DNA of 52,558 nt, taken from contig JAJQCJ010000096.1 of NCBI GenBank assembly GCA_021202775.1, positions 1-52,558 on the forward strand. The letters are read 5' to 3'. Position 1 is the stretch's first letter. The number at the start of each line of letters is the position of its first letter. Under the pieces are notes generated by a model, which made no database searches, was not told the DNA's origin, and worked only from the letters and a program-made list of their open reading frames with translations. The translations under genes were made by a program, and so were the position numbers. This stretch comes from Clostridiales bacterium. Lineage in GTDB: Bacteria > Bacillota > Clostridia > Oscillospirales > Oscillospiraceae. Positions 30,911 to 52,127 of the stretch are shown here, piece after piece.

Positions 30911-31075
30911 CACCCCTCAGTCTGGCCCTGCGGCCAGCCAGCTCCCCTTTCAGGGGCGCCATTAACGTGGTGTTTCCCACAGTTTTCTTACCTCTCCTGA
31001 AAGGGGAGGGGGACCGGCGTTAGCCGGTGGAGGGGTGGACAGTGGTAGCGCTGTCAGCGCAGCTGACTGAGGGGT
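30911..31075. repeat. Modular CACCCCTC/GAGGGGTG repeat
   Basis: Runs from CACCCCTCAGTCTGGCC through CTCCCCTTTCAGGGG and CTCCTGAAAGGGGAGG to ACCGGCGTTAGCCGGTGGAG and GGGGTG, then a second end CAGCTGACTGAGGGG. It lies between the rhamnosidase stop and the symporter start and could form a long hairpin in the transcript. Confidence 0.7.
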
Positions 31076-33638: not shown

Positions 33639-33752
33639 AAACGTACCTCTCTTTCCTGATTTTGATTTGGTGTGGCGGCGGCCTGCCGTCCCGGTTCCCC
33701 ACCGGGGCCGCCTGGTGCCGCCTGCAAAGCGCACTGCCGCTATCGTGCTTCC

Positions 33753-37491: not shown

Positions 37492-37541
37492 ACACCCCCT
37501 GGGGCTCCGCCGGGCCTGCATTTCCCAGGCAATAGGGTGGC

Positions 37542-38597
37542 TTACTCCGCCGTCAGTACGGTGAACCCCGCGTCCGCCGTCACCGCATCGGCGATGCCCT
37601 CGGTGACGTAGATGGCCCCGTCGTCGTCGATGAGGATGGCCTGGAACAGGGTGCTGTGGGCCCGCCAGTAGGCGGTGGCCTCCTCCAGCCCCATGATGTA
37701 CAGGGCGGTGGAAAGCCCGTCCCCCAGTGTCCCGTCCCCGGTGACGATGGAGACGGAGGACAGGCCGCTTTTGGCGGGGTAGCCGGTGGCGGGGTCGATG
37801 ATATGGTGATAGGTCTCGCCGGTGTCCTCGTCCTCAAAGTAGCGCTGATAGCCGCCGGAGGTGATCACCGCCTGGTCGGTCACGCTGACGATGGCCGCGA
37901 TCTCCCCCTCCGCCCCTGCCGGGTCCTGGATGCCGATGCGCCACAGGGAGCCGTCGGGCTTGGTGCCCAGGCAGTGGATGTTTCCCCCCAGGGAGACCAT
38001 GGCGGAGGTGACCCCTGCCTCCAGGAACAGCTCCATGACCTGCTGGGAGGTGTAGCCCTTGGCGATGCCACCGAAGTCGATGGCCTGCCCCTCCCCCAGG
38101 GTCAGGGTTTGGGTGTCGCTGTCATAGGTCAGCCGGTCTGCACCCACCAGGGCCAGGGTAGACTGCAGCGCGTCGGCGGCTGGCACCTGATAGTCCTGGG
38201 TGGTGAACCCCCACAGCTCCATCAGGGGGTAAACGGTGATGTCGAAGGCCCCGCCGGTGCTGTCGTACAGGTCCAGGGCGTATTCCAGCAGGGCCGCCGT
38301 GTCGTCGGAGAGGACGCCGGAGCCGGACTGATTCAGGGCGTAGACCTCGCTGCTGTCGCTGCCGGTGCTGAGCAGGGCCTCCAGCCGCCGAATCTCCGCG
38401 CAGGCGGCCTCCAGCGCCTCCTCCCGGTGGCTGCCGTAGGCGGTCAGGGTCATATAGGTGTCCATGGCCTCCAGGTACTCCGTGCTGGAGGTGCCCGCCT
38501 CCGGGTCGGCCTCGGAGGCGTCGGTCCCCCCGCCGACGGAATAGGCGCAGCCCGTCAGCAGGCACAAGGACAAAAGGGCGCATAAAATTCGCTTCAT
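37542..38597 (-). CDS. apbE: FAD:protein FMN transferase (ApbE family)
   Basis: 351 aa. It covalently attaches FMN, taken from FAD, to Ser/Thr of target flavoproteins. MKRILCALLSLCLLTGCAYS is a lipoprotein signal with lipobox LTGC, placing it outside the cytoplasmic membrane. Family motifs: MDTYMTLTAYG, GGAFDITVYPLMELWGF, AIDFGGIAKGYTSQ, SLGGNIHCLG and the catalytic/metal-binding HHIIDPATGYPAKSG. The ATG at 38595-38597 is preferred over one two codons upstream because of its spacing from GGGAGG. It is last in an operon with the Gx-type membrane protein and NusG-II protein. Likely targets in this window are RnfD-G and the FMN-binding domains of the two Tat-exported reductases. Confidence 0.94.
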   Translation of the reverse strand: MKRILCALLSLCLLTGCAYSVGGGTDASEADPEAGTSSTEYLEAMDTYMTLTAYGSHREEALEAACAEIRRLEALLSTGSDSSEVYALNQSGSGVLSDDTAALLEYALDLYDSTGGAFDITVYPLMELWGFTTQDYQVPAADALQSTLALVGADRLTYDSDTQTLTLGEGQAIDFGGIAKGYTSQQVMELFLEAGVTSAMVSLGGNIHCLGTKPDGSLWRIGIQDPAGAEGEIAAIVSVTDQAVITSGGYQRYFEDEDTGETYHHIIDPATGYPAKSGLSSVSIVTGDGTLGDGLSTALYIMGLEEATAYWRAHSTLFQAILIDDDGAIYVTEGIADAVTADAGFTVLTAE

Positions 38598-38611
38598 CTG
38601 CATATCCTCCC

Positions 38612-39148
38612 CTACCGAAACAGGGATTCCGGCAGTCGTTTCGTAATCTCATAGCTGACCAGGCCGATGACCAGCCCGGCGGCCAGCCCGCTCCACCACA
38701 GCACCAGCAGGTAATAGCCCACCTGCCTCGTCTCCAGCAGCACCATGGCCATCAAAATCTGCCCCACGTTGTGGGCGATGCCACCGGCCACGCTGACGGC
38801 CATCATGCCGAAGCGGCCCGTCCGTTTCAGCAGGAGCATCACCGCCCCGGACAGCAGCCCTCCCGCCAGGGAGTACAGCAGGCTGAAGGCATTGCCGAAG
38901 GTCATGGACACCAGCACAATGCGCAGCAGGTTCAGGATGATGGCGTCCCTGCTGCCCATGCGGTACAGGGCGATCATCACCACCAGGTTGGTCAGCCCCA
39001 GCTTCATGCCGGGGACGGCGAAAAAGGCGGGGATCAGCGTCTCCACATAACTCAGCACCATGGCCAGGGCGACGAGCAGGCCGTACCGGGCCACCCGCCT
39101 GGCCCCCATGGTCCCCCTGTTTTCCTTTTTTTCTCTTTTTTGGTTCAT
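38612..39148 (-). CDS. Gx transporter family membrane protein (Hpre_diP_synt_I type)
   Basis: 178 aa with about five membrane segments: ARYGLLVALAMVLSYVETLIP, MKLGLTNLVVMIALYRMG, LNLLRIVLVSMTFGNAFSLLYSLAGG, and AHNVGQILMAMVLLE in the second half. This matches the family named heptaprenyl diphosphate synthase component I or Gx transporter, whose fold resembles ECF S-components. Genes of this type commonly sit with ApbE and NusG-II proteins beside Rnf-like systems, so a role in supplying flavin or isoprenoid for extracellular flavoproteins is possible. Its ATG overlaps the NusG-II stop (ATGA) and apbE follows 14 bp later. Confidence 0.85.
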   Translation of the reverse strand: MNQKREKKENRGTMGARRVARYGLLVALAMVLSYVETLIPAFFAVPGMKLGLTNLVVMIALYRMGSRDAIILNLLRIVLVSMTFGNAFSLLYSLAGGLLSGAVMLLLKRTGRFGMMAVSVAGGIAHNVGQILMAMVLLETRQVGYYLLVLWWSGLAAGLVIGLVSYEITKRLPESLFR

Positions 39149-39546
39149 TTCGTCACCCCGTCCAGGGCCAATTCGTCGCTGCCGGTGATCTCCACCACCA
39201 GGCTGTGGGGCAGGCAGATCAGGCTGTCCCCGGCGTAGCGGATTTTGCCCTGCTTCACGCAGAGCCGGTCAGGGCAGTCCGCATCCTCGATGCAGGCGGC
39301 ACCGTCCTCAATCACCAGCCGGTTTGTGCCCTCCTCCGACTCGATGAGGTAACTGCCGTCCTGGCTCAGGGGATAGGCGGCGGTGACCTCCCCGTCCTGC
39401 CGCACCACCACGGTCAGCGCCGCCGGGTCCGCCGCCTCCGTCCGGGAGGCGAAGTAGACCGCCGTCAGCGCCAGCCCCGCCAGCACCACCGCAGCCAGCA
39501 GAATAAGGTCGTTTTTCCTGTTTCTGTTTCCCTGTCCTTCGCCCAT
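39145..39546 (-). CDS. Membrane-anchored NusG domain II protein
   Basis: 133 aa. One N-terminal membrane helix (about residues 13-34; DLILLAAVVLAGLALTAVYFA) leads to an outside NusG_II-type beta domain. The family's Cys-containing segment is GAACIEDADCPDRLCVKQGKI followed by YAGDSLICLPHSLVVEI. Such proteins accompany ApbE and Rnf-like or flavin-export loci, but their biochemical job is not established. First gene of the three-gene operon NusG-II, Gx, apbE; its stop overlaps the next start. No strong promoter was picked out; an AT-rich stretch (39600-39670, TTATAATAG) separates it from merR. Confidence 0.85.
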   Translation of the reverse strand: MGEGQGNRNRKNDLILLAAVVLAGLALTAVYFASRTEAADPAALTVVVRQDGEVTAAYPLSQDGSYLIESEEGTNRLVIEDGAACIEDADCPDRLCVKQGKIRYAGDSLICLPHSLVVEITGSDELALDGVTK

Positions 39547-39696
39547 ATGCCCCTCGCTTCAACGGTTTTCCGCATTTCCCAAAGCAGCGGGAAATGGATT
39601 TGATTTCTAAAATTGTTAAAAAAATGTACTGACCTGTATTGACCTGAGGGTTACACTCAACTTTATAATAGATGGGAGAAACCTGCGTTCGGTCCG

Positions 39697-40527
39697 TCAG
39701 CCCCGCAGGGGGATGCTGACCTGCTGAAAATAGCAGAATTTCCCCTCCGCGTGGCTCTCAAACAGGTTGTAAATGCAGATCGGCTCCTCCCCCTCCAGCC
39801 CCAGCCGGGCCAGCATGGACAGGGCGGGGGCGGTTTGCAGGTCGATCTCCTCCCCCTGGGTACCCACCTCGTGGTCCAGCGGGCGGCGGGGGGACTGCAT
39901 GGCGTACCAGAACGACTGACAGGGGGGCAGGGTGACAAGCCCGCTGCCCGTCAGCCCCAGAGCCTGGGCCTGCTCCTGAGGGATGGCGAAGCCGTAGGTC
40001 AGCGTTCCCTCCCGCACCAGGCCGCAGTAATCCGCGGCGGGGGTGGCGTTCACCCAGTCGCCCAGGGCGGCCAGGTCGTCGCCCTCCAGCTCCAGAAGCC
40101 GGTCATAGGCGGAGAAGGGGAAGAAGGTCAGGGCAGGCCGCGGGCCCGTGGTCCAGCTGCCGTCAAAGGTGCCCGCCGCCGCCTGCTGCTGAAGGGGGTA
40201 GAGCCGCTTCAGCTTCTCTAAAAACAGAGTTTTCAGCTGAAGCTCCCGCTCCAGCTGATGCATCTGCCGGTCGGTTTCCGCCGCCGTCTCCGTGGGGGCG
40301 GCTTCGCAGAGCAGGCGCTGAATCTCCCGCAGAGAGCAGCCGGTGTTTTGCAGCTTCCTGCTGATGAGGATGGCCGGATACTGGTCGTGATAATAGTACC
40401 GGTACTGATTCCCCTCCTCCCGCTGAGGGGTGAGAATCTGGTGCTTTTCATAGTATTTGATGAGATCCCGGCTGACGCCCAGCCGTTGGGCGAATTCGCC
40501 CATGCGGTAGATTTTCTGCTTTGCCAA
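39697..40527 (-). CDS. MerR-family transcriptional regulator
   Basis: 276 aa. The N-terminal winged helix-turn-helix is clear: IYRMGEFAQRLGVSRDLIKYYEKHQILTP, then YYYHDQYPAILISRKLQNTGCSLREIQRLL, and a coiled-coil segment (QMHQLERELQLKTLFLEKLKRLYPLQQ, about 90-120). The C-terminal 150 residues resemble no domain I can name and should bind the effector; they lack the Cys pair of metal-sensing MerR proteins. The start is TTG at 40525-40527, 7 nt after GAGGTG. It is divergent from tatB and next to the apbE operon, so it is the natural candidate regulator of the respiration island. Confidence 0.87.
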   Translation of the reverse strand: MAKQKIYRMGEFAQRLGVSRDLIKYYEKHQILTPQREEGNQYRYYYHDQYPAILISRKLQNTGCSLREIQRLLCEAAPTETAAETDRQMHQLERELQLKTLFLEKLKRLYPLQQQAAAGTFDGSWTTGPRPALTFFPFSAYDRLLELEGDDLAALGDWVNATPAADYCGLVREGTLTYGFAIPQEQAQALGLTGSGLVTLPPCQSFWYAMQSPRRPLDHEVGTQGEEIDLQTAPALSMLARLGLEGEEPICIYNLFESHAEGKFCYFQQVSIPLRG

Positions 40528-40558
40528 GGGTGACACCTCTTTTTCTGGTTCACGTCCT

Positions 40559-40587
40559 AGTATAGTGGAATCGGCCCGGACTTTCAA
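40559..40587 (-). promoter_or_regulatory. Promoter of the merR gene
   Basis: TTGAAA (40587-40582), a 17-bp gap and TATACT (40564-40559) on the minus strand. A standard 17-bp spacer, unlike the 19-20 bp of promoters that MerR proteins untwist. Confidence 0.7.
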
Positions 40588-40648
40588 TCATTTTTTTGCA
40601 TTTTATCCTGCGGGAGACATTTTACACCGTGGAAGGACTGTCATTACC

Positions 40649-41059
40649 ATGAAAATCGGCGTAATGGAGCTGATTGTCATTTTCATCGTGGCGCTGCTGG
40701 TCATTGGGCCGGACAAGCTGCCGGAATACGCGAAGAAGCTGGGGGTGGCCCTGGGGGAGTTCCGCAAGGCCACCGGCGATTTGACCGCCGACATCAAGGA
40801 GGGGGTCATCGAGCCGCTGGAGCAGGCCCAGGAGCCCCTCCGGCAGGCCGTTGAGCCGCTGGACGATTTGCGAAGCGAGGTCGAAGGCGAGCTGAAAGAG
40901 GTGGAGACCTCTTTCAACAACCTGGGCAAGCCCGCCCGGAAGTCGGCCAAGGCCGCCCCGGCGGCGAAACCGGCGGCCACCCCGTCAGAATCGCCCGCCC
41001 CGGCCCAGCCGGAGCCGTCCGCCGAACCGGCGGCGGAGGAACCCACACAGAACCTGTAA
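40649..41059 (+). CDS. tatB: TatA/TatB-family twin-arginine translocase subunit, TatB-like
   Basis: 136 aa. A short N-terminal membrane helix (KIGVMELIVIFIVALLVIGPDKLPEYAKKLG) has the conserved Glu and the GP hinge, followed by an amphipathic helix and a long charged, then Ala/Pro/Glu-rich tail (about 95-136). The KLPEYAKKLG hinge and the length favour a TatB role; many Firmicutes use only TatA-type subunits, so the label is tentative. Start: ATG at 40649 with GGAAGGAC. It is first of tatB-tatA-tatC, divergent from merR. Confidence 0.82.
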   Translation: MKIGVMELIVIFIVALLVIGPDKLPEYAKKLGVALGEFRKATGDLTADIKEGVIEPLEQAQEPLRQAVEPLDDLRSEVEGELKEVETSFNNLGKPARKSAKAAPAAKPAATPSESPAPAQPEPSAEPAAEEPTQNL

Positions 41060-41090
41060 CAGAACCTGTAAGAGAAGGAGAACGCATACC

Positions 41091-41285
41091 ATGAAAATCG
41101 GAGTTACCGAGCTAATTGTCATTCTGCTGATCGTCGTCGTCATCTTCGGCCCCACCCAGATTCCCAAGCTGACCAAAATGCTGGGCAGCAGCATCAAGAA
41201 CCTGCGGGAGGGCCTGAACGGCAGCGAGGAAAAGGCGGCGGAAAAGACGGCGGAGGAGAACCAGTCCAAGGATGAGCAGGCATAA
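41091..41285 (+). CDS. tatA: Twin-arginine translocase subunit TatA
   Basis: 64 aa. It opens like its neighbour (MKIGVTELIVILLIVVVIFGP), then an amphipathic helix IPKLTKMLGSSIKNLREGL and a short charged tail, the compact form of a pore-forming TatA. The ATG has AGAGAAGGAG upstream. It overlaps the tatC start by 14 bp. Confidence 0.9.
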   Translation: MKIGVTELIVILLIVVVIFGPTQIPKLTKMLGSSIKNLREGLNGSEEKAAEKTAEENQSKDEQA

Positions 41286-42039
41286 AACAGCCCGGGAGCC
41301 CCAGGGCGGCGAAATGAGCCTCAGCGGGCACCTGAAGGAGCTGCGCAACCGCATCCTGGTCTGTATCGTCTGCCTGGTTGTGGGGGTGCTGGTCTGTCTG
41401 GCCTTCGCCCCGGAAATTGTGGAGCAGCTCACCAACCTGGGCAAGGGGTACGGGTACCAATATGTGTACATCGCCCCGCAGGAGCTGCTGATGGTGCAGC
41501 TCTCTGTGGCCGCCATCGGCGGGCTGGTGATCTGCTCCCCTGTGCTGCTGTACGAGATTTACGCCTTCTGTGCCCCCGGCCTGAAAAAGTCGGAGCGGCT
41601 GACCTTCGCCCTGGCGGTGGGCTTCGGCGTGGTGTGCTTTTGTGTGGGGGTGCTGTTCGCCTACAAGGTGACCGTCCCCTTTATGCTGTACTTCCTCATC
41701 AACCTCAGCGTGGGAACGGACGTGGCCTCTGCCATCAGCATCGAGAGCTACGTCAATTTCCTGCTGACGGTGTTTGTGATTTTTGGTGCGGTGTTTGAAA
41801 TGCCCGTCCTCTCGGTGCTGCTGACCCGGATGGGGGTGCTGAAACCGGTGTGGCTGGCGAAATCCCGGAAGGTGCTGATCGTGGTGATCTTCCTGGTGGC
41901 CGCCCTGATCACCCCGCCGGATATTCTGTCTCAGATCATGGTGGCCCTGCCCATGCTGGCCCTGTTTGAGCTGAGCGTTTTCCTGTGCAGGCTGGCCGCC
42001 AAAGGCCAAAAAGAACAGACCGCCGACCCGGCCAAATAA
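41272..42039 (+). CDS. tatC: Twin-arginine translocase subunit TatC
   Basis: 255 aa with six membrane segments. The signal-binding N-terminal motif is MSLSGHLKELRNRILVCIVC, with the conserved Glu that reads the twin-arginine signal. Further family blocks: PQELLMVQLSVAAIGGLVICSPVLLYEIYAFCAPGLKKSER, FYKVTVPFMLYF-like, FGAVFEMPVLSVLLTRMG and AALITPPDILSQIMVALPMLALFELSVFL. It inserts folded, cofactor-loaded proteins across the membrane. Tat is far from universal in Clostridia, and here it stands directly before two substrates with SRRDFIKG signals, so it is probably dedicated to them. Confidence 0.95.
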   Translation: MSRHKTAREPQGGEMSLSGHLKELRNRILVCIVCLVVGVLVCLAFAPEIVEQLTNLGKGYGYQYVYIAPQELLMVQLSVAAIGGLVICSPVLLYEIYAFCAPGLKKSERLTFALAVGFGVVCFCVGVLFAYKVTVPFMLYFLINLSVGTDVASAISIESYVNFLLTVFVIFGAVFEMPVLSVLLTRMGVLKPVWLAKSRKVLIVVIFLVAALITPPDILSQIMVALPMLALFELSVFLCRLAAKGQKEQTADPAK

Positions 42040-42064
42040 GGCAATATGATTCATTTGAGGGGGG

Positions 42065-42180
42065 CACCCCTCCACCGGCTGTCGCCGGTCCCCCTCCGCC
42101 GTCAAGCGGCATTTCCGGCGCTTTGCGCCTCCCTACCCTGAAAGGGGAGCTGGCTGGCCGCAAGGCCAGACTGAGGGGTG
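42065..42180. repeat. Modular CACCCCTC/GAGGGGTG repeat
   Basis: A full-length copy between tatC and the first reductase gene: CACCCCTCCACCGGCTGTCG, an inserted GCCGTCAAGCGGCATTTCCG module, CCCTGAAAGGGGAGCTGGC and CAGACTGAGGGGTG. Confidence 0.7.
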
Positions 42181-42276
42181 TGAACGCCGGGCATTTTCTA
42201 TAAACAACTTTTTCTAAGAAAATAATTTCTTCACGTTGATTACATTGCCCAATCAGGGCACTATCTCTGTATATCA

Positions 42277-42317
42277 GCGGCAGCCGTGGGTATCCCACGG
42301 GAGGGGTGCCGCTTTTA
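42277..42317 (+). terminator. Terminator-like hairpin before the reductase genes
   Basis: GCGGCA and CCGTGGG pair with CCCACGG and TGCCGC (two stacked stems), followed by TTTTATAAAA. It lies 52 bp before the first reductase start. It may end the tat transcript or act as an attenuator, because no clear promoter follows it. AT-rich sequence (42195-42260) could hold a promoter upstream of it. Confidence 0.55.
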
Positions 42318-42368
42318 TAAAATCCTAGCAATCCCCGTATTACATTGCTACAGGAGGAATTTTGAGAG

Positions 42369-44501
42369 ATGGCAAACAATCCTATTTCACGCAGAGACTT
42401 CATCAAGGGCATCGCGGCCGGCGCGGTCAGCGTGGCCACCGTGGGCATACTCCAGGCCTGTGAGTACTCCACTTCCGGCACCACCAACACCGCTGACAGC
42501 AGCGCGGCATCGTCCGCCGCCAGCAGCGCGGCGTCCTCCGGCGCCGCCCCGGCGGAGGGAGCGACCTATGTGCCCGGCACCTACTCCGCCACCGCCACCG
42601 GCATGGGCGAGGTCACCGTCACCATGACCTTTGACGAGACCAGCATCACCGACGTGCAGATCGACGTCTCCAATGAGACGGCGGGCTACGGCGCGGACAT
42701 CGGCGACGACATGGCCCAGGCCATCCTGAATGCCCAGTCCAGCGAGGTGGACGGCGTCTCCGGGGCCACCCTGACCAGCAACGCCATTAAGAACGCCGCC
42801 GCCGACTGCATCGCCCAGGCAAAGGGCGAGTCCACCGGCGCCGTCGCCGATGAGGTCACCGCCTCCTCCGATGACGACTGGCTGGGGGAGGAGCCCAACA
42901 TCACCGACGCCGACTGCTCCGAGACCCTGGAGTGCGAGGTGCTGGTCATCGGCTGCGGCATCGCCGGTGTGGCCGCCGTCCGGGCCGCCGCCGAGGAGGG
43001 GGCCCAGGTCATCGCCATTGAGAAGGGCTCCGGCCCTCAGTGCCGCTCCGGCGAGTACGCCGTTATCAACGGCAACGTGGAGGCCACCTGGGGCCGGAAT
43101 ACCTGGACGGAGGACCAGATCAAGGGGATGACCAACTTCCATATGCAGGAATCCTGCTACAAGGTGAAGCAGTCCATCTTCCACAAGTGGGCCACCAACA
43201 TCGGCGACGTGTTCGACTGGTGGGTGGAGCCCAACACCGACCTGTACATCGCCCCGGAGACCCGTGCCGCCATCCCCGACGAGAATGCGGACAACTTCCT
43301 GATCCCCATCTTCTACCCTCTGCCGGAGGCCTACGACTGGACGGAGGAGCAGTTCCCCTGCTATCCCACCTCGGTGGAGTTCAAGCCCGACCAGTCCGTC
43401 AACGTCAACTGCAACATGGATGCGGCGGTGGCCACCGGCAACGTGGACGCCCATTACGGCTGCTTTGCCGAGAAGCTCATCATGGAGGACGGCCGGTGCG
43501 TGGGCGCTTACGTCCGGGACGCCCTGAACGACAACGTCTATTACCGCATCAACGCCTCCAAGGGGGTCATTATGGCCACCGGCGACTACTCCCAGAATGA
43601 GGCCATGGTGCAGCACTTCTGCCCCGGCGTCATTGAGAACGGCATCACCCGGATGTTCACCAACATCGACGTGGAGGGTAACTTCACCAACATCGGCGAT
43701 GGCCTGAAGCTGGGCATCTGGGCCGGCGCGGCGGTGCAGCAGGACCACGCCCCCGTCATTCACCACATGGGCGGCGGCGCGGACCTGGAGGGCATCGGCG
43801 TCATGGGCATCGCCCCCTTCCTGAACCTGGACATGAACGGTAAGCGCTTCATGAACGAGGATATCCCCGGCCAGCAGCTGGAGAACCAGATCGAGATTTT
43901 GAAGGACCGGAAGAGCTGGCAGATCTTCGACGCCAACTGGCCGGAGCAGCTGCCCTACATGCCCGCCATCCACGGCGGCGCCTGCTACTATGAGGACTAT
44001 GCCAGCGAGGAGGAAGGCCCCGCCAACAACGCCACCTATCGGAACTACAAGAGCCCCTATCAACTCCAGGAGGCCATTGACGACGGCCGCTGCATCACCG
44101 CCGATACCCTGGAGGAGCTGGTGGCCCTGATGTACCCCGACGATGAGGACGCCCAGGCCACTGCCCTGGCCTCCATCGAGCGGTACAATCAGCTGGCGGA
44201 GGAGGGCTATGACTCCGACTTCGGCAAGACCGCCAAGCGGATGTGGGCCCTGAAGAACCCGCCTTACTATGCCGACCAGTTCGTGACCGCCCTGCTGCTG
44301 GTCATCATCGGCGGCTTTGAATCCGATGAGAACTGCCACGTCTACGACACCGACCGCAACATCATCCCCGGCCTCTACGCCTGCGGCAACGCCCAGGGCA
44401 ACCGTTGCGCCGTGGAGTATCCCATCACGTTAAAGGGTGTGTCCCACTCCATGGCCATGTACTACGGCTATGTGGCGGGGAAGAACGTGGCCGCCCTGTA
44501 A
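42369..44501 (+). CDS. Tat-exported FMN-binding/FAD reductase (fumarate/urocanate reductase family), copy 1
   Basis: 710 aa. The Tat signal is NPISRRDFIKGIAAGAVSVATVGILQAC; the Cys at residue 31 could be a lipid anchor. A small-residue linker is followed by an FMN_bind domain (about residues 60-150) whose ApbE flavinylation site is DGVSGATLTS, then a flavoprotein domain (about 190-710) with the FAD motif EVLVIGCGIAGVAA and the active-site-side block NLDMNGKRFMNEDIPG. The late segment GLYACGNAQGNR closes the FAD site. The His/Arg pattern of true fumarate reductases is not evident (LLLVIIGGFE where HTMGG is common), so the acceptor may be another enoate or related compound. It is 54 bp before its paralogue and upstream of rnf. 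ATG after AGGAGGAATTTTGAGAG. Confidence 0.9.
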   Translation: MANNPISRRDFIKGIAAGAVSVATVGILQACEYSTSGTTNTADSSAASSAASSAASSGAAPAEGATYVPGTYSATATGMGEVTVTMTFDETSITDVQIDVSNETAGYGADIGDDMAQAILNAQSSEVDGVSGATLTSNAIKNAAADCIAQAKGESTGAVADEVTASSDDDWLGEEPNITDADCSETLECEVLVIGCGIAGVAAVRAAAEEGAQVIAIEKGSGPQCRSGEYAVINGNVEATWGRNTWTEDQIKGMTNFHMQESCYKVKQSIFHKWATNIGDVFDWWVEPNTDLYIAPETRAAIPDENADNFLIPIFYPLPEAYDWTEEQFPCYPTSVEFKPDQSVNVNCNMDAAVATGNVDAHYGCFAEKLIMEDGRCVGAYVRDALNDNVYYRINASKGVIMATGDYSQNEAMVQHFCPGVIENGITRMFTNIDVEGNFTNIGDGLKLGIWAGAAVQQDHAPVIHHMGGGADLEGIGVMGIAPFLNLDMNGKRFMNEDIPGQQLENQIEILKDRKSWQIFDANWPEQLPYMPAIHGGACYYEDYASEEEGPANNATYRNYKSPYQLQEAIDDGRCITADTLEELVALMYPDDEDAQATALASIERYNQLAEEGYDSDFGKTAKRMWALKNPPYYADQFVTALLLVIIGGFESDENCHVYDTDRNIIPGLYACGNAQGNRCAVEYPITLKGVSHSMAMYYGYVAGKNVAAL

Positions 44502-44555
44502 AAAGCAGAACATATTACATTCGCCAACGGCGGAGCAGAGAGGAATTTTTGAAAG

Positions 44556-46601
44556 ATGGCAAATCCTATTTCACGCAGAGACTTTATCAAGGGCATCGCA
44601 GCAGGGGCGGTCAGCGTGGCCACCCTGGGGGTGCTGCAGGCCGTTGACAACGCAACATCCGCCGCCGGCAGCGGAGGTGGCACAGCCTCCTCCGCAGGCA
44701 GCGCTACCGCCTCCGGCGTCACCGGAGAGGCGATTTACACCCCCGGCACCTATTCCGCCACCGCCCAGGGCATCGCCAGCGAGGTCACCGTCACCATGAC
44801 CTTTGACGAGACCAGCATCACCGACGTGCAGATCGACGTCTCCGGCGAGACGGAGAACATCGGCGCCGTGGTGGGGGACGATATGGCCGCCGCCATTCTG
44901 GCGCAGCAGACCTGCAACGTGGACGGCGTCTCCGGCGCCACCGTCACCTGTGACGCGGTGAAAACCGCCGCCGCCGACTGTATGTCCCAGGCCAGCGGCA
45001 CCACCGTCACCGTGGCCGCCGCTGAGGAGGAATCCACCTCCGCCGACTGGCTGGGGGAGGCCCCGGACATCGCAGAAAGCGAAATCACCGAGACCGTGGA
45101 CACCGAGGTTCTGGTGGTGGGCTGCGGCTCCGGCGGCTGGATCGCCGCCATGACCGCCGCCGAGGAGGGCGCCAAGGTGCTGGTGGTGGAGAAGAACGAA
45201 TCCCCCACCGGCCCCAGAGAAGACATCGGCGCCATCAACTCCAGGCTCCAGCTGGCCTCCTTCGAGGAGTACCCGGAGTTTGAAATCGACAAGATGGAGG
45301 CCCTCCAGGACATCGTTCGCTACGGCGCGGGCTATGTGGACTATGACCTGATCCGCTGCTGGGCGGACAACAGCGGCGAGATGGTGGACTGGCTCACCGA
45401 CCTGCTGGAGTCCACCGGCAACTGGTACATGAGCCTGGAGGGCGGCGTTGGCGACACCAGCGACCCCGGCCGGGACAAGGCCTACGCCACCGGCCACAGC
45501 CCCCACACCACCGACTCCGCCCCGGAGGACACCACCCTGAACTCCACCTTCCAGGCCCACTGTGACGACCTGGGGGTAGACTGGAAGCTGTCCACCGCCC
45601 TGGTGAAGCTGGAGCAGGACGACAGCGGCAGGGTCACCGGCATCATCGCCCAGGACCAGACCGACCAGCACTACATCCGCATCAACGCCTCCAAGGGCGT
45701 CATTATGTGTACCGGCGGCTACGCCACCAACACCGAAATGCTCCAGGCCCTCCAGCCCCAGACCCTGGCGATGAAGATCAACTACAGCCTTGGCTCCACC
45801 TGCGACGGCTCCGGCATCAAGGCCATGCTGTGGGCCGGGGCGGCCATGGACCCCACCCACGCCTCCATGATGTTCAACCGCTGCTGCTGCCTCCCCACCG
45901 AGACGGCGGGGTACAAGACCAACGGCAAGTGGTTCTGGTTTGGCGAGCAGCCCTTCCTGAAGGTGAACCTGAACGGCCAGCGCTTCTGCAACGAATCCGG
46001 CCCCTACGAGTTTATGCTGCACTCCATGTATATGCAGCCTGACCATACCTATTGCGACATCTTTGACGCCAACAACCAGCAGTACGCCGAGCAGTTCGAC
46101 GAGGTGGGCTGCTGCCGCCTCTTCGCCTTCCCCAACGGGGCGCTGTCCAACATGACCTATGACTACGTCTGGTCCCGGAACGAGGCGCTGATTGAGGACG
46201 GCTACCTCCAGCAGGCGGACGCCCTGGAGGAGCTGGCGGAAAAGCTGAATATCCCTGCCGATACCTTCGTCGCCACTGTGGAGCGGTACAACGAGCTGTG
46301 CTACAACGGCAAAGATGAGGACTACGGCAAGGAGGCCCACCGGATGACCCCGGTGGACACCGCCCCCTACTATGGTATCCGTACGGGGGCCTGGCATCTG
46401 ACGACGCTGAACGGATGCCGTATCAACACCGATATGCAGGTGATCCGGGAGGATGGCACCGCCATCGAGGGGCTGTACGCCACAGGCGACTGCTCCGGCG
46501 GCTTCTTTGCCACCACCTACCCCAACCTGTTTACGGGCCTGGCCTGCGGCCGAACCATGACCTTCGGACGCAGGGCGGCGCAAATCGTGGCCAACCTCTG
46601 A
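44556..46601 (+). CDS. Tat-exported FMN-binding/FAD reductase, copy 2
   Basis: 681 aa, a diverged paralogue of the gene before it. The signal is again SRRDFIKGIAAGAVSVATLGVLQAV, but Val replaces the Cys, so it is probably secreted or held by its helix rather than lipidated. The FMN_bind domain is close to identical in key stretches (VTMTFDETSITDVQIDVS; flavinylation site DGVSGATVT). The FAD domain has EVLVVGCGSGGWIAAMTAAEEGAKVLVVEK, a VNLNGQRFCNESGPYE block and GAWHLTTLNGCRINTDMQV near the end, where a His is present unlike in copy 1. The two copies therefore probably use different acceptors. Start: ATG with AGAGAGGAATTTTTGAAAG. It ends 84 bp before rnfC. Confidence 0.9.
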   Translation: MANPISRRDFIKGIAAGAVSVATLGVLQAVDNATSAAGSGGGTASSAGSATASGVTGEAIYTPGTYSATAQGIASEVTVTMTFDETSITDVQIDVSGETENIGAVVGDDMAAAILAQQTCNVDGVSGATVTCDAVKTAAADCMSQASGTTVTVAAAEEESTSADWLGEAPDIAESEITETVDTEVLVVGCGSGGWIAAMTAAEEGAKVLVVEKNESPTGPREDIGAINSRLQLASFEEYPEFEIDKMEALQDIVRYGAGYVDYDLIRCWADNSGEMVDWLTDLLESTGNWYMSLEGGVGDTSDPGRDKAYATGHSPHTTDSAPEDTTLNSTFQAHCDDLGVDWKLSTALVKLEQDDSGRVTGIIAQDQTDQHYIRINASKGVIMCTGGYATNTEMLQALQPQTLAMKINYSLGSTCDGSGIKAMLWAGAAMDPTHASMMFNRCCCLPTETAGYKTNGKWFWFGEQPFLKVNLNGQRFCNESGPYEFMLHSMYMQPDHTYCDIFDANNQQYAEQFDEVGCCRLFAFPNGALSNMTYDYVWSRNEALIEDGYLQQADALEELAEKLNIPADTFVATVERYNELCYNGKDEDYGKEAHRMTPVDTAPYYGIRTGAWHLTTLNGCRINTDMQVIREDGTAIEGLYATGDCSGGFFATTYPNLFTGLACGRTMTFGRRAAQIVANL

Positions 46602-46685
46602 GGTTCTCAAAGAGACAGCCCTGACTGTGGGGATGTAGGGGGAGAAAACTGACGTTGACCCAACTGTTCGTGAAAGGAGAAGCGT

Positions 46686-48023
46686 ATGGCAAAATCAAAA
46701 ATCCGAGGTGGGGTTCATCCCAAAGGGTGCAAAGAGCTCAGCAGCGGCGCCGCCACCGTCCCCTATCAGGCAAAGGGCGAATTGGTGTTCCCGCTGAGCC
46801 AGCACATTGGGAAACCCGCCGTCCCCATCGTCAAGCGGGGAGACACCGTCCTGGCCGGCCAGACCATCGCCAGGGCAGACGGCTTTGTCTCCGCCCCTAT
46901 CATCTCCTCCGGTTCCGGCAAGGTGAAGGCTGTCGAACCCAGGCTGACCTCTGCAGGGGTGATGGCCCAGTGCATTGTCATTGACAATGACGGCCAGTAC
47001 ACCCCCGACCCCTCCGTGGGGGTGAAGAGCGACTACACAAAGCTCTCCAGCCAGGAGATCCTGGGCAAGGTACAGGCCGCCGGCATTGTGGGCCTGGGCG
47101 GCGCAGGCTTCCCCACCCATGTCAAGCTGGCCCCCAAGAATCCGGAAGAAATCGAATACGTCATCGCCAACGGCGCGGAGTGCGAACCCTACATCACCTG
47201 CGACGACCGGCTGATGCAGGAGCATCCCGACTGGGTGGTAATGGGCCTGAAGGTGGTGCTCCAGCTGTTCCCCAACGCCAAGGGCGTCATCGCCATTGAG
47301 GACAACAAGCCCGCCGCCATCGCCGCCATGCAGAAGGCCATCCAGGGGGATGACCGCCTCTCCGTGCTGGAGCTGGAGACCCGGTACCCCCAGGGCGGTG
47401 AGCGCGGCCTGGTGCACGCGGTCACCGGTCAGTGGCTGGGAGGCGGCGGCGCGCTGCCCGCCACCCTGGGCTGCATTGTGGACAACGTCACCACCCTGTC
47501 CGCCATCTATCAGGCGGTGTGCGAGGGTGTGCCGCTGATGGAGAAGGGCTTCACCGTCTCCGGCGACGCGGTGGCGAACCCCGGCAACTTCATGATCAAG
47601 CTGGGCACCTCCCTCCAGGAGGTGCTGGACGCGGCGGGCGGCCTGAAGGCCGAGGCCAAGAAGACCCTGCTGGGCGGCCCCATGATGGGCACCGCCATCA
47701 GCAGCTACGACGTGCCCATCGTCAAGGCCAACAACGCCCTGCTGTGCATGACCCGTGACGAGGTGGAGGAGGCGGACAAGCTGATGACCGCCTGCATCCG
47801 CTGCGGCCGGTGCGGCACCGCCTGCCCCATGGGGCTGATCCCCCAGATGATGGCGGTGGCGGCCAAGACCAAGGACTATGCCCGCTATGACCAGCTCCAC
47901 GGCACCGACTGTATCGGCTGCGGCAGCTGCACCTACATCTGCCCGGCCAAGCGTCCGCTGACCCAGCTGTTCAAACAAACCAAGCCTGTCGTGCTGGGTC
48001 TCAAGCGCGAAGGCAAGCTGTGA
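46686..48023 (+). CDS. rnfC: Rnf complex subunit RnfC (FMN/NADH-side, 2x[4Fe-4S])
   Basis: 445 aa, cytoplasmic membrane-associated subunit that exchanges electrons with NAD(H). It begins GGVHPKGCKELSSGAATV (typical RnfC), followed by the barrel-sandwich region, then the Rossmann-like nucleotide and FMN part with VGLGGAGFPTHVKLAPKN and IANGAECEPYITCDDRLM, and an SLBB-like segment. Two [4Fe-4S] motifs end it: CIRCGRCGTACPMGL and CIGCGSCTYICPAKRPL. First of the rnf operon (C-DG-E-A-B); ATG after GAAAGGAGAAGCGT. Confidence 0.95.
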   Translation: MAKSKIRGGVHPKGCKELSSGAATVPYQAKGELVFPLSQHIGKPAVPIVKRGDTVLAGQTIARADGFVSAPIISSGSGKVKAVEPRLTSAGVMAQCIVIDNDGQYTPDPSVGVKSDYTKLSSQEILGKVQAAGIVGLGGAGFPTHVKLAPKNPEEIEYVIANGAECEPYITCDDRLMQEHPDWVVMGLKVVLQLFPNAKGVIAIEDNKPAAIAAMQKAIQGDDRLSVLELETRYPQGGERGLVHAVTGQWLGGGGALPATLGCIVDNVTTLSAIYQAVCEGVPLMEKGFTVSGDAVANPGNFMIKLGTSLQEVLDAAGGLKAEAKKTLLGGPMMGTAISSYDVPIVKANNALLCMTRDEVEEADKLMTACIRCGRCGTACPMGLIPQMMAVAAKTKDYARYDQLHGTDCIGCGSCTYICPAKRPLTQLFKQTKPVVLGLKREGKL

Positions 48024-48036
48024 GGAGGGATTTAGA

Positions 48037-49602
48037 ATGGAAAAAATGCTGAACGTGTCCTCCTCTCCCCATCTGAGAGACAGTAAGCTGACCACCGGAC
48101 ACGTCATGTATGACGTGATCCTGGCGCTGATGCCGGTCACCATCTTTGGTATCTATCACTTTGGCTTCCACGCCTTCCTGGTGCTGGCGGTCAGCATTGT
48201 CACCGCTGTGGCGACGGAGTTCCTCTTTGACCTGGCCACCCACCATCCCAACACCGTGAAGGACGGCTCCGCGGTGCTCACCGGCCTGCTGTTGGGCCTG
48301 TGCTGCTCCCCCACCGTCCCCCTGTACATCCCCTTCCTGGGCAGCCTGTTCGCCATCGCCCTGGTAAAGTGCGCCTTCGGCGGCCTGGGTCAGAACTTCA
48401 TGAACCCGGCCCTGGCAGGCCGCTGCTTCCTGCTGCTGTCCTTCAGCTCTGCCATGACCAGCTACAGCGTGGACGGCACCTCCAGCGCCACCCCTCTGGC
48501 CATCCTGGAAGAAGGCGGCACCGTGGACGTGCTGGACATGTTCCTGGGCTTCACTGACGGCACCATCTGCATCAGCATTGCCGCCATGCTCATCGGCGGG
48601 GCCTACCTGCTGATCACCAAGGGCATCACCTGGCACATCCCCGTGGCCTATGTGGGCAGCTTCCTGATCTGCATGATCGCCTTCGGCGGTCAGGGCTTTG
48701 ACCCCATGTTCCTGCTGGCCCACCTGTGCGGCGGCGGCATCGTCTTTGGCGCCCTGTTCATGGCCACCGACCCGGTCACCAGCCCGGTCACCGGCATGGG
48801 GCAGCTGATTTACGGCGCGGTCATCGGCGTGCTGACGGCGGTGTTCCGTGTCTTCGGCAGCTCCGCCGAGAGCGTCAGCTACGCCATCATCCTGGGCAAC
48901 CTGGTGACCCCCCTCATCGACCGCTGGGTGGTACCCAAGCCCTACGGTATCGGTGACGGCACCAAGAAGGAAGTCACCACCGGCTCGAAGAAGATCCCCA
49001 AGGCCGCCATCACCCTGGCCTGCATCACCCTGATCGCCGGTCTGGCTCTGGGCCTGGTGAACTTCATGACCGCGGACATCATCGAGGAGCAGAACGCCGC
49101 CACCAAGGCCGCCTCCTATGTGGAGGTCATCCCCACGGCAGCCGAGGTCAACTATGACGACGACCTGACCGCCCTGGTAGAGGAAGCCGCTGCCGCCAGC
49201 GATTACTATGCTGACAGCGCCTTCGGCAAGGTCAAGGTCAACGAGGCCGTGGTGGGCACCGATTCTTCCGGCAACATCGTGGGCTACGCCATCAGCGTCA
49301 GCACCGCCGACGGCTATGGCGACAGCATCACCATGAGCGTGGGCATCGACACCGAAGGCACCATCCTGGGCCTCTCCTTCACCGAGCTGGAAGAGACCGC
49401 CGGTCTGGGCATGCGGGCCGATGAGGACAGCTTCAAGAGCCAGTTCGTCGGCGTCCAGGTGTCGTCCTTCACGCTGAATAAGAGCGGCGGCTCCACGGCG
49501 GATGATGAGATCGACTCCATCTCCGGCGCGTCCACCACCTCCGGCGCAGTGGTCAACGCGGTGAACGCCGCCATCGACTTCTTCGCCAACTACATCCAGT
49601 AA
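48037..49602 (+). CDS. Fused RnfD-RnfG subunit
   Basis: 521 aa in one open frame. Residues 1-307 are RnfD: about nine membrane helices, SSSPHLRDSKLTTGHVMYDVI at the start, covalent-FMN site DGTSSATPL near residue 150, and the usual RnfD ending VTPLIDRWVVPKPYG. Residues 308-521 are RnfG: a charged link, one membrane helix (ITLACITLIAGLALGLVNFM), then an FMN_bind domain with VGYAISVSTADGYGDSITMSVGID, the LEETAGLGMRAD block and flavinylation site DSISGASTTSGAVV. In most bacteria these are two genes, rnfD and rnfG. The fusion puts both covalent flavins on one chain. ATG 13 bp after rnfC, with GGAGGGATTTAGA. Confidence 0.92.
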   Translation: MEKMLNVSSSPHLRDSKLTTGHVMYDVILALMPVTIFGIYHFGFHAFLVLAVSIVTAVATEFLFDLATHHPNTVKDGSAVLTGLLLGLCCSPTVPLYIPFLGSLFAIALVKCAFGGLGQNFMNPALAGRCFLLLSFSSAMTSYSVDGTSSATPLAILEEGGTVDVLDMFLGFTDGTICISIAAMLIGGAYLLITKGITWHIPVAYVGSFLICMIAFGGQGFDPMFLLAHLCGGGIVFGALFMATDPVTSPVTGMGQLIYGAVIGVLTAVFRVFGSSAESVSYAIILGNLVTPLIDRWVVPKPYGIGDGTKKEVTTGSKKIPKAAITLACITLIAGLALGLVNFMTADIIEEQNAATKAASYVEVIPTAAEVNYDDDLTALVEEAAAASDYYADSAFGKVKVNEAVVGTDSSGNIVGYAISVSTADGYGDSITMSVGIDTEGTILGLSFTELEETAGLGMRADEDSFKSQFVGVQVSSFTLNKSGGSTADDEIDSISGASTTSGAVVNAVNAAIDFFANYIQ

Positions 49603-49620
49603 AGGAGGGGACAAAATTTT

Positions 49621-50304
49621 ATGAATCCGTATGTGGAACGAATTTACAACGGTATCGTGAAGGAAAATCCGGTATTCATCATGATGCTGGGTATGTGTCC
49701 GGCCCTGGCCGTGACCACCTCCGCTACCAACGGCTTCGGCATGGGCATGAGCACCATGGCGGTGCTGATCATGTCCAACCTGATCATCTCCCTGCTGCGG
49801 AAGATCATCCCTGACCAGGTGCGTCTGCCGGCCTACATCGTCATTGTCGCCTCCCTGGTGACGGTGGTGCAGCTGCTGATTCAGGCGTACATCCCCGTGC
49901 TGTACTCCGCCCTGGGCATTTACATCCCCCTGATCGTGGTGAACTGCATCATCCTGGGCCGGGCTGAGGCGTATGCCGCCAAGAATCCGCCCCTGCTGTC
50001 CGTCATGGACGGCGTCGGCATGGGCCTGGGCTTCACCGTGGGCCTGACCATCCTGGGCCTCCTGCGGGAGCTGTTCGGTGCCGGCACCGCCTTCGGCATC
50101 CAGATCATGCCCGACGCCTATCAGCCCATCGCCGTGCTGACCCAGGCCCCCGGTGCCTTCCTGGTGCTGGCCCTGATCATCGCCGTGATGAACGCCTTCA
50201 GCATTAAGACCGCCGCCAACGACAAGGTGGAGGGCTGCGACGGCTGCTGCGCCACCTGCCAGCAGAAGTGCGCCGACGAGAAGAAGGAGGGTGAGACCGT
50301 ATGA
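49621..50304 (+). CDS. rnfE: Rnf complex subunit RnfE with Cys-rich tail
   Basis: 227 aa with six membrane segments: MLGMCPALAVTTSATNGFGMGMSTMAVLIMSNLIISLLRKIIPDQVRLPAYIVIVASLVTVVQLLI in the first half, and ALGIYIPLIVVNCIILGRAEAYAAKN and LGLLRELFGAGTAFG later, all standard. The Cys in GMC and in VNC belong to the membrane [2Fe-2S] site shared with RnfA. An unusual cytoplasmic tail (about 200-227) carries GCDGCCATCQQKC, five Cys in the pattern C-x2-CC-x2-C-x3-C. Overlaps rnfA by ATGA. ATG after AAAGGAGGGGACAAAATTTT. Confidence 0.94.
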   Translation: MNPYVERIYNGIVKENPVFIMMLGMCPALAVTTSATNGFGMGMSTMAVLIMSNLIISLLRKIIPDQVRLPAYIVIVASLVTVVQLLIQAYIPVLYSALGIYIPLIVVNCIILGRAEAYAAKNPPLLSVMDGVGMGLGFTVGLTILGLLRELFGAGTAFGIQIMPDAYQPIAVLTQAPGAFLVLALIIAVMNAFSIKTAANDKVEGCDGCCATCQQKCADEKKEGETV

Positions 50305-50876
50305 CACTGCTTATGATCATTGTGACCTCCGCCCTGATCAACAACGTGGTGCTGAACCAGTTCCTGGGCCTCTGCTCCTTCCTGGGCGTGTCCAAGCAAA
50401 TCAAGACCTCGGCCAGCCTGGGGGCGGCAGTCATCTTCGTCATGACCATCGCCTCTGCCGTGGCCAACCTGCTGTACACCTTCGTGCTGGACCCCCTGGG
50501 TCTGAGCTACCTGCAAACCATCGTCTTTATTCTGGTCATCGCCGCCCTGGTGCAGGTGGTGGAGATGTTCCTGAAGAAGGCCATGCCGGCGCTGCACAGC
50601 GCCCTGGGCATCTACCTGCCCCTGATCACCACCAACTGCGCGGTGCTGGGCGTCGCCCTGAACAACGTCACCGACGGCTACAACTTCATCGAGAGCGTTA
50701 TCTGCGGCTTCGGCACCGCCGTGGGCTTCACCCTGGCCATCGTGCTGCTGGCGGGCATCCGTGAGCGGCTGGAGAGCAACGACAATGTCCCGAAGGCCTT
50801 CCAGGGCGCGCCTCTGGTGCTGCTGAGCGCTGCGCTGATGGCCATTGCCTTCTGCGGCTTCAGCGGCCTGGCGTGA
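50301..50876 (+). CDS. rnfA: Rnf complex subunit RnfA
   Basis: 191 aa with six membrane segments. Family blocks: IVTSALINNVVLNQFLGLCSFLGVSK, with the Cys of the membrane iron-sulfur site, and ALGIYLPLITTNCAVLGVAL with its partner Cys, then AVGFTLAIVLLAGIRERLE. RnfA and RnfE are inverted-topology homologues that pass electrons across the membrane. The start overlaps the rnfE stop and rnfB follows 18 bp later. Confidence 0.95.
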   Translation: MTLLMIIVTSALINNVVLNQFLGLCSFLGVSKQIKTSASLGAAVIFVMTIASAVANLLYTFVLDPLGLSYLQTIVFILVIAALVQVVEMFLKKAMPALHSALGIYLPLITTNCAVLGVALNNVTDGYNFIESVICGFGTAVGFTLAIVLLAGIRERLESNDNVPKAFQGAPLVLLSAALMAIAFCGFSGLA

Positions 50877-50894
50877 GAAAAGGAGGAACAGAGT

Positions 50895-51689
50895 ATGACT
50901 ATGATTTTGAGCAGCCTCCTGGTCCTCGCCATCGTCGGCCTGTTGGTGGGCCTGATGCTGGTCTTTGTGGGCAACAAGTTCAAGGTGGAGGTGGACGAGC
51001 GGGAGGCCGCCGTCCGGGACTGCCTCCCCGGCAACAACTGCGGCGGCTGCGGTTACGCCGGCTGCGACGCGGTGGCTGCCGCCATCGTGAAGGGTGAGGC
51101 CCCTGTGACGGCTTGCCCTGTGGGCGGCCAGGCCGTGGCGGATAAGATCTCCGCCATCATGGGCGTCACCGCCGGCGACGGCGCGGACAAGAAGGTGGCC
51201 TTCGTCAAGTGCGCCGGCACCTGTGACAAGGCCAAGAACAACTGCAACTATGTGGGCATCAAGACCTGCGAGGCGGCGGCCATCATCCCCGGCAAGGGGA
51301 GCAAGGCCTGCCAGCAGGGCTGCCTGGGCTTCGGCAGCTGCGTGGCCGCCTGCCAGTTTGACGCCATCCATGTGGTGAACGGCGTGGCCGTGGTGGACCG
51401 CTCCAAGTGCGTGGCCTGCGGCAGCTGCGTCAAGGCCTGCCCCCAGAAGCTGATCGAGCTGGTGCCCGACAAGAGCACCTATGCCGTCCAGTGCAGCAAC
51501 CAGGAGAAGGCCAAGATCGTCAAGGCCCAGTGCGACGTGGGCTGCCTGGGCTGCGGCCTGTGCGTCCGCCAGTGCGAGGAGGGGGCCATCGCCCTCCAGG
51601 GCAATGTGGCGAAGATCGACTACGAGAAGTGCGTGGGCTGCGGCAAGTGCGCCGCCAAGTGCCCGGCAAAGATCATCCGCATGAGATAA
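50895..51689 (+). CDS. rnfB: Rnf complex subunit RnfB (ferredoxin-accepting, poly-[4Fe-4S])
   Basis: 264 aa. One N-terminal membrane helix (ILSSLLVLAIVGLLVGLMLVFVG) anchors a cytoplasmic iron-sulfur arm. The first cluster is in PGNNCGGCGYAGCDAVAAAI with a later Cys in VTACPVGG. Further Cys groups: CAGTCDKAKNNC, CQQGCLGFGSCVAACQFDAI, CVACGSCVKACPQKLI, CLGCGLCVRQCEEGAI and CVGCGKCAAKCPAKII. It accepts electrons from reduced ferredoxin. Last gene of the operon, followed by a strong terminator. ATG after AAAGGAGGAACAGAGT. Confidence 0.95.
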   Translation: MTMILSSLLVLAIVGLLVGLMLVFVGNKFKVEVDEREAAVRDCLPGNNCGGCGYAGCDAVAAAIVKGEAPVTACPVGGQAVADKISAIMGVTAGDGADKKVAFVKCAGTCDKAKNNCNYVGIKTCEAAAIIPGKGSKACQQGCLGFGSCVAACQFDAIHVVNGVAVVDRSKCVACGSCVKACPQKLIELVPDKSTYAVQCSNQEKAKIVKAQCDVGCLGCGLCVRQCEEGAIALQGNVAKIDYEKCVGCGKCAAKCPAKIIRMR

Positions 51690-51708
51690 GCGACCTGCAA
51701 AACGCAGG

Positions 51709-51751
51709 GGGCGCTGCCGTGGGATTCCACGGCAGCGCCCTTTCCTTTTTC
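51709..51751. terminator. Terminator after rnfB
   Basis: A perfect 14-bp stem (GGGCGCTGCCGTGG / CCACGGCAGCGCCC, GATT loop) is followed by TTTCCTTTTTC on the plus strand, 20 bp after the rnfB stop. It may also serve the convergent ylmC-type gene. Confidence 0.92.
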
Positions 51752-51776
51752 TTTGATGTTCCGGCCTCCCCCGCTG

Positions 51777-52055
51777 TCACAGCCAGGGAAACCGCCCCTT
51801 CACATGGGGCCGCACCTCCGGCATCCCCTCCACCAGGATGATGTCCTCCCCGAAGCGGCGGACGTTGTCCCAGTGGATGAGCCGGTCCTCCGTCCGCCCG
51901 AACAGGCCGAAGAACCGGGCTTCTCCGGGGACGATGAGGGCGCGGACCTGCCCCGTGTCCAGATCCAGCGACAGGTCGCCCACATATCCGTAGCGGCTGC
52001 CGTCGGAGACGCTGATGACCTCCTTCTCCCGCAGATCGTTGAGGGTCAAGAACAT
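51777..52055 (-). CDS. YlmC/YmxH-family PRC-barrel sporulation protein
   Basis: 92 aa, a single PRC-barrel domain: LNDLREKEVISVSDGSRYGYVGDLSLDLDTGQVRALIVPG, then FFGLFGRTEDRLIHWDNVRRFGEDIILVE. This is the YlmC/YmxH pattern, common in spore formers and often under late sporulation control; its exact role is not known. Start: ATG at 52053-52055 after AAAGGAGGAACCCCT. Convergent with the rnf operon. Confidence 0.88.
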   Translation of the reverse strand: MFLTLNDLREKEVISVSDGSRYGYVGDLSLDLDTGQVRALIVPGEARFFGLFGRTEDRLIHWDNVRRFGEDIILVEGMPEVRPHVKGRFPWL

Positions 52056-52127
52056 AGGGGTTCCTCCTTTTTGGATAGGGGTGGAAGATTGCCGTTTCAT
52101 GTGATAACTGCGGTTTCCGTCTGTTCC

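Follow-up and report, generated by a model that had tools for sequence, protein, structure and literature searches.

We analyzed a 52,558-nt contig (JAJQCJ010000096.1; hereafter the window) of a Clostridiales bacterium of the Oscillospiraceae (GCA_021202775.1; 2.52-Mb assembly, completeness rated 95%), in which a block at 37542..51689 carries genes for an Rnf complex, a twin-arginine translocation (Tat) system, two predicted exported flavin reductases (red1 and red2), and proteins for flavin export and attachment (Table 1). The genes named in a preliminary description of the block (apbE, a Gx-type protein, a NusG-II protein, merR, tatB-A-C, two reductases, and rnfC-(DG)-E-A-B) were all recovered in place, and all pass Pfam cut-offs. 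RnfC, RnfD, and TatC also exceed NCBIfam cut-offs, and matches to the TatA/TatB and ApbE NCBIfam models fall below theirs. The start of tatB was refined to 40649, and tatA and tatC overlap by 14 bp.

Table 1. Genes of the block, with strand and supporting evidence.
Feature	Position	Strand	Evidence
apbE, FAD:protein FMN transferase	37542..38603	-	PF02424, 292 bits; lipoprotein-type N-terminus LLTGC by eye
PF07456 "Gx" protein, EetB-type FAD exporter S-subunit	38612..39148	-	133 bits
NusG_II-domain protein	39145..39546	-	PF07009, 99 bits; membrane anchor by eye
MerR-type regulator, divergent from tatB	39697..40587	-	MerR_1, 50 bits; true start perhaps 40527
tatB-like (long TatA/B)	40649..41059	+	PF02416, 56 bits
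tatA, 64 amino acids	41091..41285	+	PF02416, 47 bits
tatC	41272..42039	+	TIGR00945, 190 bits
red1, 710 amino acids; Tat signal, FMN_bind, FAD_binding_2 reductase	42369..44501	+	Pfam and Tat-signal model; DGVSGAT
red2, 681 amino acids; Tat signal, FMN_bind, FAD_binding_2 reductase	44556..46601	+	Pfam and Tat-signal model; DGVSGAT
rnfC	46686..48023	+	TIGR01945, 496 bits
rnfD-rnfG fusion, 521 amino acids	48037..49602	+	TIGR01946, 262 bits, and TIGR01947, 101.6 bits; single open reading frame
rnfE	49621..50304	+	PF02508, 217 bits
rnfA	50301..50876	+	PF02508, 200 bits
rnfB	50895..51689	+	PF04060, 51 bits; three Fer4 stretches

By gene content the electron-transfer complex is an Rnf, with all subunits (C, D, G, E, A, and B) encoded in the block, and the window's genome gave only one match to an RnfD-G query. 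The G half of the rnfD-rnfG fusion exceeds the Pfam FMN_bind cut-off, falls slightly short of the TIGR01947 cut-off of 102 bits, and carries a flavinylation motif (DSISGAS) that fits the ApbE pattern. Because RnfD and RnfG are said to have no direct contact in Rnf (excerpt of PMC10979944), their fusion is odd; it is not specific to this block, since at least 15 of the other family genomes (300 searched) also have one open frame across both halves. The Tat translocase comprises TatC, TatA/B proteins, and cargo with RRxF[IL]K signals, and red1 and red2 each combine an export signal, an FMN_bind domain with a DxxSGAT motif, and a FAD_binding_2 domain, as in flavinylated PF00890 reductases. PF07456 is the family of EetB, and Listeria EetB was shown to export FAD (flavin adenine dinucleotide) for extracytosolic ApbE, according to an excerpt of PMC9973259. 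Together with ApbE and the motif-bearing proteins, this family assignment implies that the block encodes predicted FAD export, an enzyme that attaches FMN (flavin mononucleotide), and targets for flavinylation.

Whether related genomes keep tat, rnf, and flavin reductases with Tat signals linked had been set beforehand as a check, and the linkage is conserved. Among 130 non-duplicate loci (L numbers below; G numbers are genomes), 29 including the window show the strict order tat-reductase-rnf, 6 have a protein of several FMN_bind domains (poly-FMN_bind) between tat and rnf, 4 have tat and rnf with no recognized gene between them, and 4 show another close arrangement. These loci were fetched for a match to tat, rnf, or the reductase, many of them without TatC in reach, and so form a non-random sample (L117 was removed by hand), unlike the random samples of 300 family and 391 class genomes, in which TatC exceeded its cut-off in 13 and 17 genomes, respectively, each count including the window's genome. 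The gap between the reductase and rnfC has a median of 39 bp, on the same strand (39 pairs, including 4 duplicate loci and 6 poly-FMN_bind genes). The four other TatC-bearing genomes of the genus preserve merR-tat-reductase(s)-rnf as the gene order, the number of reductases ranging from one to three, and eetB and NusG_II were recognized beside apbE in two of them. At L038 and L039 (genus g95), the tat operon faces the rnf operon; a Tat reductase lies beyond tat in L038, and the L039 contig ends earlier. Of the 13 TatC-bearing family genomes, 7 (counting the window's) also contain rnf in the sequence fetched around tat. Since the same order recurs across many genomes, it reflects more than chance, and the block, which had been presented as unusual, is instead a module of gut Clostridia. 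One bearer, Clostridiales bacterium NK3B98 (L153), presumably a rumen isolate, is not marked as a metagenome assembly and has tatB, tatA, a reductase, and rnf together; its tatC on a separate contig and its flavin motif TSAT make it a possible but imperfect test strain.

A scan with a profile from the red2 alignment retained 80 of 92 relatives. The fetched stretch around these 80 red2-like loci held tat (TatC or TatA) and rnf in 34, tat only in 12, rnf only in 2, and neither in 32; both rnf-only contigs begin at or inside the reductase. TatC was searched genome-wide for 50 of the 80 loci and was present in all 23 genomes picked for tat beside the reductase and in 24 of the 27 in which tat is absent from the fetched sequence around the red2 relative (the match in G695 is weak, with a stop), compared with 13 of 300 family genomes.

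A sister genome (G194), rated 100% complete and with an rnfDG 95% identical to that of the window, gave zero TatC matches. Its contig aligns to window positions 37541-39608, 39607-40605, and 46264-52076, and 77 bp stand in place of the missing 40606-46263. Retained are merR, NusG_II, eetB, apbE, and all rnf genes, along with the tail of red2 and, by eye, the start of tatB. The simplest reading of this alignment would be a single deletion of tatBAC plus the reductase(s); G194 is one metagenome assembly, in which misassembly could explain the gap. The near relatives at L131 and L132 carry one reductase, so red1 may never have been in G194.

The single TatC match and all three FMN_bind matches of the window's genome lie within the block. 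In this genome, a Tat-signal model placed two proteins, red1 and red2, over its cut-off, with five weaker matches below; because this short model overlooks some signals, cargo counts are lower bounds. We then counted Tat-signal proteins at E 0.05 or better in 45 genomes that have both a red2 relative and TatC. The 23 genomes picked for tat beside the reductase had one such protein in 14 cases, two in 4, three in 1, four in 3, and nine in 1. The remaining 22, where tat is not beside the reductase, ranged from 0 to 43, which implies that a single-cargo Tat is a trait of block-bearing genomes and not a general one. The preliminary description had called the Tat system dedicated to its two neighboring substrates. 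By signal counts it does serve almost only these reductases in this genome and in many relatives; it is not an extra copy beside a general Tat, but the sole Tat found.

Neighborhoods of tat elsewhere show a similar pairing. A Tat-signal gene lies beside tat in 11 of the 13 TatC genomes of the family, even when it is not a reductase; the exceptions are G095 (short contig) and G090 (19 Tat signals). In G230 and G116 (L046 and L047), tat adjoins a Tat-signal 4Fe-4S ferredoxin next to aldehyde:ferredoxin oxidoreductase (Pfam on L046 only), and in G275 the adjoining gene encodes a large SLH-domain protein. These Clostridia seem to carry Tat as an accessory that moves together with its cargo. Three genomes of the genus have no FMN_bind match outside the block or what remains of it: G134 (2 matches), G240 (1, with rnfDG cut at the contig end), and G194 (1). 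Two further arrangements were seen. At L123 (G374), the neighbor of tat is a gene for a Tat-signal FeFe hydrogenase, which itself adjoins a gene for an FMN_bind protein; apbE and eetB lie close by. At L109, L111, and L125 (G524, G461, and G414), from another family, tat adjoins a gene for a FAD reductase with a Tat signal, and tatC is followed by a gene for a small, separately encoded FMN_bind protein that looks like a lipoprotein by eye.

A UbiA-type quinone prenyltransferase was found over cut-off in none of nine genomes searched, window's included; all 14 controls were positive. Because Rnf is the sole flavin-bearing membrane donor among the families searched and no UbiA exceeded its cut-off, electrons most likely exit via RnfG/RnfD. 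With moderate confidence, we favor the interpretation that the block is a co-inherited module for quinone-free, flavin-based anaerobic respiration running from Rnf through covalent flavins to Tat-exported reductases. Such respiration had been proposed from the window alone; the conserved linkage, the UbiA result, and the joint absence of tat and reductases in G194 are in its favor, and what we infer are the path and direction of the electrons, the acceptor, the ion coupling, and the regulation. Rnf would accept electrons from NADH or reduced ferredoxin, possibly with ion pumping as part of the respiration, and these would reach the outward-facing covalent flavins of the RnfD-RnfG fusion, hop to the covalent FMN of the reductase FMN_bind domain, and pass to its FAD. 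The final step would be the extracellular reduction of an organic acceptor, for which an activated C=C compound other than fumarate or urocanate is the most likely candidate. TatBAC would export the reductases pre-folded around FAD, with few other cargoes; the EetB-type protein would export FAD, which the lipoprotein ApbE would use to attach FMN; and the MerR protein probably senses the acceptor. The chances seem evenly balanced for the fuller proposal of a whole quinone- and cytochrome-free chain as one operon, in which Rnf with its fused D-G arm discharges outward via covalent flavins and the cell's entire Tat serves one or two reductases, gained and lost with them.

The same genes might instead be neighbors by shared need: Rnf would perform ordinary ferredoxin:NAD+ exchange, the reductases would use another donor, and the common requirement would be ApbE and exported FAD. 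The persistence of Rnf without reductases in G194, the co-localization of eetB with Rnf in 572 genomes of Clostridia (excerpt of PMC9973259), and the 12 of 80 loci that have tat and a reductase with rnf out of reach are consistent with this explanation. Yet tat does not require ApbE and nevertheless adjoins rnf directly in the four loci lacking a recognized gene between them; moreover, with no UbiA over cut-off and no further FMN_bind, the window's genome offers no alternative membrane donor within the families covered by the search, which did not extend to donors of other types. We regard shared need as rather unlikely. A reversed path, in which the exported enzymes act as dehydrogenases and supply Rnf with electrons, appears very improbable, since reduction of NAD+ or ferredoxin by such oxidations would be uphill on general energetic grounds, and characterized FMN_bind enzymes of this superfamily are respiratory reductases (excerpt of PMC8238504).

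Several observations weigh against the respiratory module. The flavin motif of the RnfD part (DGTSSAT) is one letter off the pattern; G174 gave one UbiA match, below cut-off; and cells could acquire quinones from their surroundings. The RnfD-G query was matched in 262 of the 300 family genomes, nearly all without Tat, and together with the Rnf kept in G194 without reductases this implies that Rnf has a role of its own. FMN_bind domains do not always follow the block: genus members G046 and G278 have 10 each, most of them outside it, the two g95 genomes hold one each, which is RnfG's own, and none is present in the Tat reductase next to tat in G163. Linkage also varies. Outside the family, rnf was near tat in 1 of 15 TatC genomes examined (G567). 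Of the 32 red2-like loci without tat and rnf nearby, 15 have about 10 kb on both sides, and the 12 tat-only loci add to these. For 22 genomes without tat beside the red2 relative, the stretch around TatC was fetched, and rnf was there in 8 and not in 14. Finally, a quick TatC tree requires at least 10 changes of tat-rnf linkage.

The six loci in which tatC and rnfC flank a gene for a poly-FMN_bind protein (L209, L210, L211, L213, L214, and L215) bear on the exit from Rnf. Four of these proteins checked by Pfam have 5 to 7 FMN_bind domains; no FAD domain was found, and the N-termini are Tat-like with RT in place of RR. The Tat-signal reductase across tatB lacks FMN_bind by profile in L209, L210, L213, and L214 (Pfam agrees for L209), a pattern that a shift of the flavin relay onto a separate protein might produce, and from its domain content the poly-FMN_bind protein may possibly be a flavin wire adjoining Rnf. 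These loci fit an exit through Rnf flavins, because four of the six reductases across tatB lack FMN_bind; the two in L211 and L215 do have one, which counts against such a transfer there. Related variants were also noted. In L152 and L164, a three-domain FMN_bind protein precedes the reductase, and at L197:401-3319 (-), in a Goat_Duodenum assembly, a 973-amino-acid fusion of FMN_bind, FAD_binding_2, and cytochrome c552-type domains lies directly downstream of rnfB.

The two reductases are identical at 27 of 31 signal positions, 69 of 107 positions of the FMN_bind part, and 169 of 503 positions of the catalytic domains. Similarity is thus much higher in the front ends (42369-43025 and 44556-45194) than in the catalytic parts, as might result from copying of a front-end cassette between the genes. 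A structural model of red2 resembles urocanate reductase, cyclohexanone dehydrogenase, and ketosteroid dehydrogenase about equally, and the fold does not separate these. We rejected red2 as a fumarate or urocanate reductase, since the HHTMGG His and the NRLGGN Arg are replaced in alignments to 1d4c, 1qo8, and 6t85; the catalytic Arg position, covered by the 6t85 alignment only, is replaced there too. We take these three to be the substrate residues of fumarate and urocanate reductases. At these positions, the red2 letters are constant or nearly so among 39 relatives. Red1, judged by eye and not by structure alignment, has neither motif. A VprA-type vinyl phenol reductase was likewise rejected, with NF053717 giving 205 bits for red2 and 91 bits for red1 against a cut-off of 600. 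We read red2 as a putative ene or enone reductase, with its substrate unassigned. The 39 aligned relatives keep RR in 38 and [S/T]GA[S/T] in 33; the 6 that deviate from the latter motif, and the one with RK instead of RR, are further points against a uniform module. A Cys is positioned as in a Tat lipoprotein in 12 of the 39 and, by eye, in red1.

These active-site letters, which differ from those of fumarate and urocanate reductases, would also suit detoxification or redox balance, in which the same electron path serves not growth but MerR-controlled removal of harmful plant enones or phenolics outside the cell. A MerR-type regulator stands divergent from tatB or from lone red2-like genes (homologues of the window's MerR are 48-96% identical at tat-rnf blocks or the G194 remnant and 27-30% identical beside six lone red2-like genes), and, by record titles, the relatives' samples are often from rumen, horse, goat, sheep, deer, or "Lapin" (rabbit). 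We nonetheless consider this alternative quite unlikely, since a shared operon with an ion-pumping complex would suggest energy conservation.

Much of this system has known counterparts. Publications already describe flavinylated reductases, the association of Rnf with eetB and apbE, and another route for electrons out of Rnf (excerpts of PMC8238504, PMC9973259, and PMC12052999), and 3070 PF00890 proteins with an FMN-binding domain have been counted (excerpt of PMC8238504). As described in that excerpt, Listeria FrdA and Shewanella UrdA resemble red1 and red2 in having FMN_bind and FAD_binding_2 domains, an extracytosolic location, and the ApbE motif; their donor is encoded elsewhere in the genome, whereas here Rnf and Tat adjoin the reductases, and red2 is without the substrate residues of the fumarate and urocanate enzymes. 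The Clostridial clusters of the 572 genomes likewise keep Rnf, EetB, and ApbE together; the excerpt of PMC9973259 describes no Tat or reductase in them, whereas both are present here and D and G are fused. Clusters with multi-flavinylated RnfG, proposed to feed other extracytosolic acceptors (excerpt of PMC8238504), embody the same idea of a second exit from Rnf, but here the electrons would leave by way of an enzyme exported through Tat; in relatives, a free-standing poly-FMN_bind protein encoded between tatC and rnfC would take that place. The block also shares with Listeria-type extracellular electron transfer a predicted EetB and ApbE pair (PF07456 and PF02424), and its demethylmenaquinone pathway was not found by the UbiA search of the nine genomes. 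In Bacillus, TatAdCd beside phoD is a substrate-specific Tat pair with the same placement of tat beside its cargo; here, the genome yielded no second Tat, and the tat genes are linked to those of a donor complex that pumps ions. In the open-access literature searched, we found no description of an operon in which tat, reductase, and rnf genes are inherited together and Tat has nearly a single cargo; the parts are known, and this combination appears to be the new element. If the respiratory interpretation is correct, fermentative gut Clostridia can respire with flavins alone, Rnf serves directly as the respiratory electron donor of extracytosolic enzymes, and the block provides a natural, minimal one-cargo Tat for studying the export of folded proteins.

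Outside the block, an alpha-L-rhamnosidase gene lies nearby at window positions 31086-33734; plant flavonoid sugars would be one substrate source. A short repeat in the tatC-red1 gap (42144-42167) recurs once in the window, at 30924-30947, and further dispersed repeats match between the window and its relatives.

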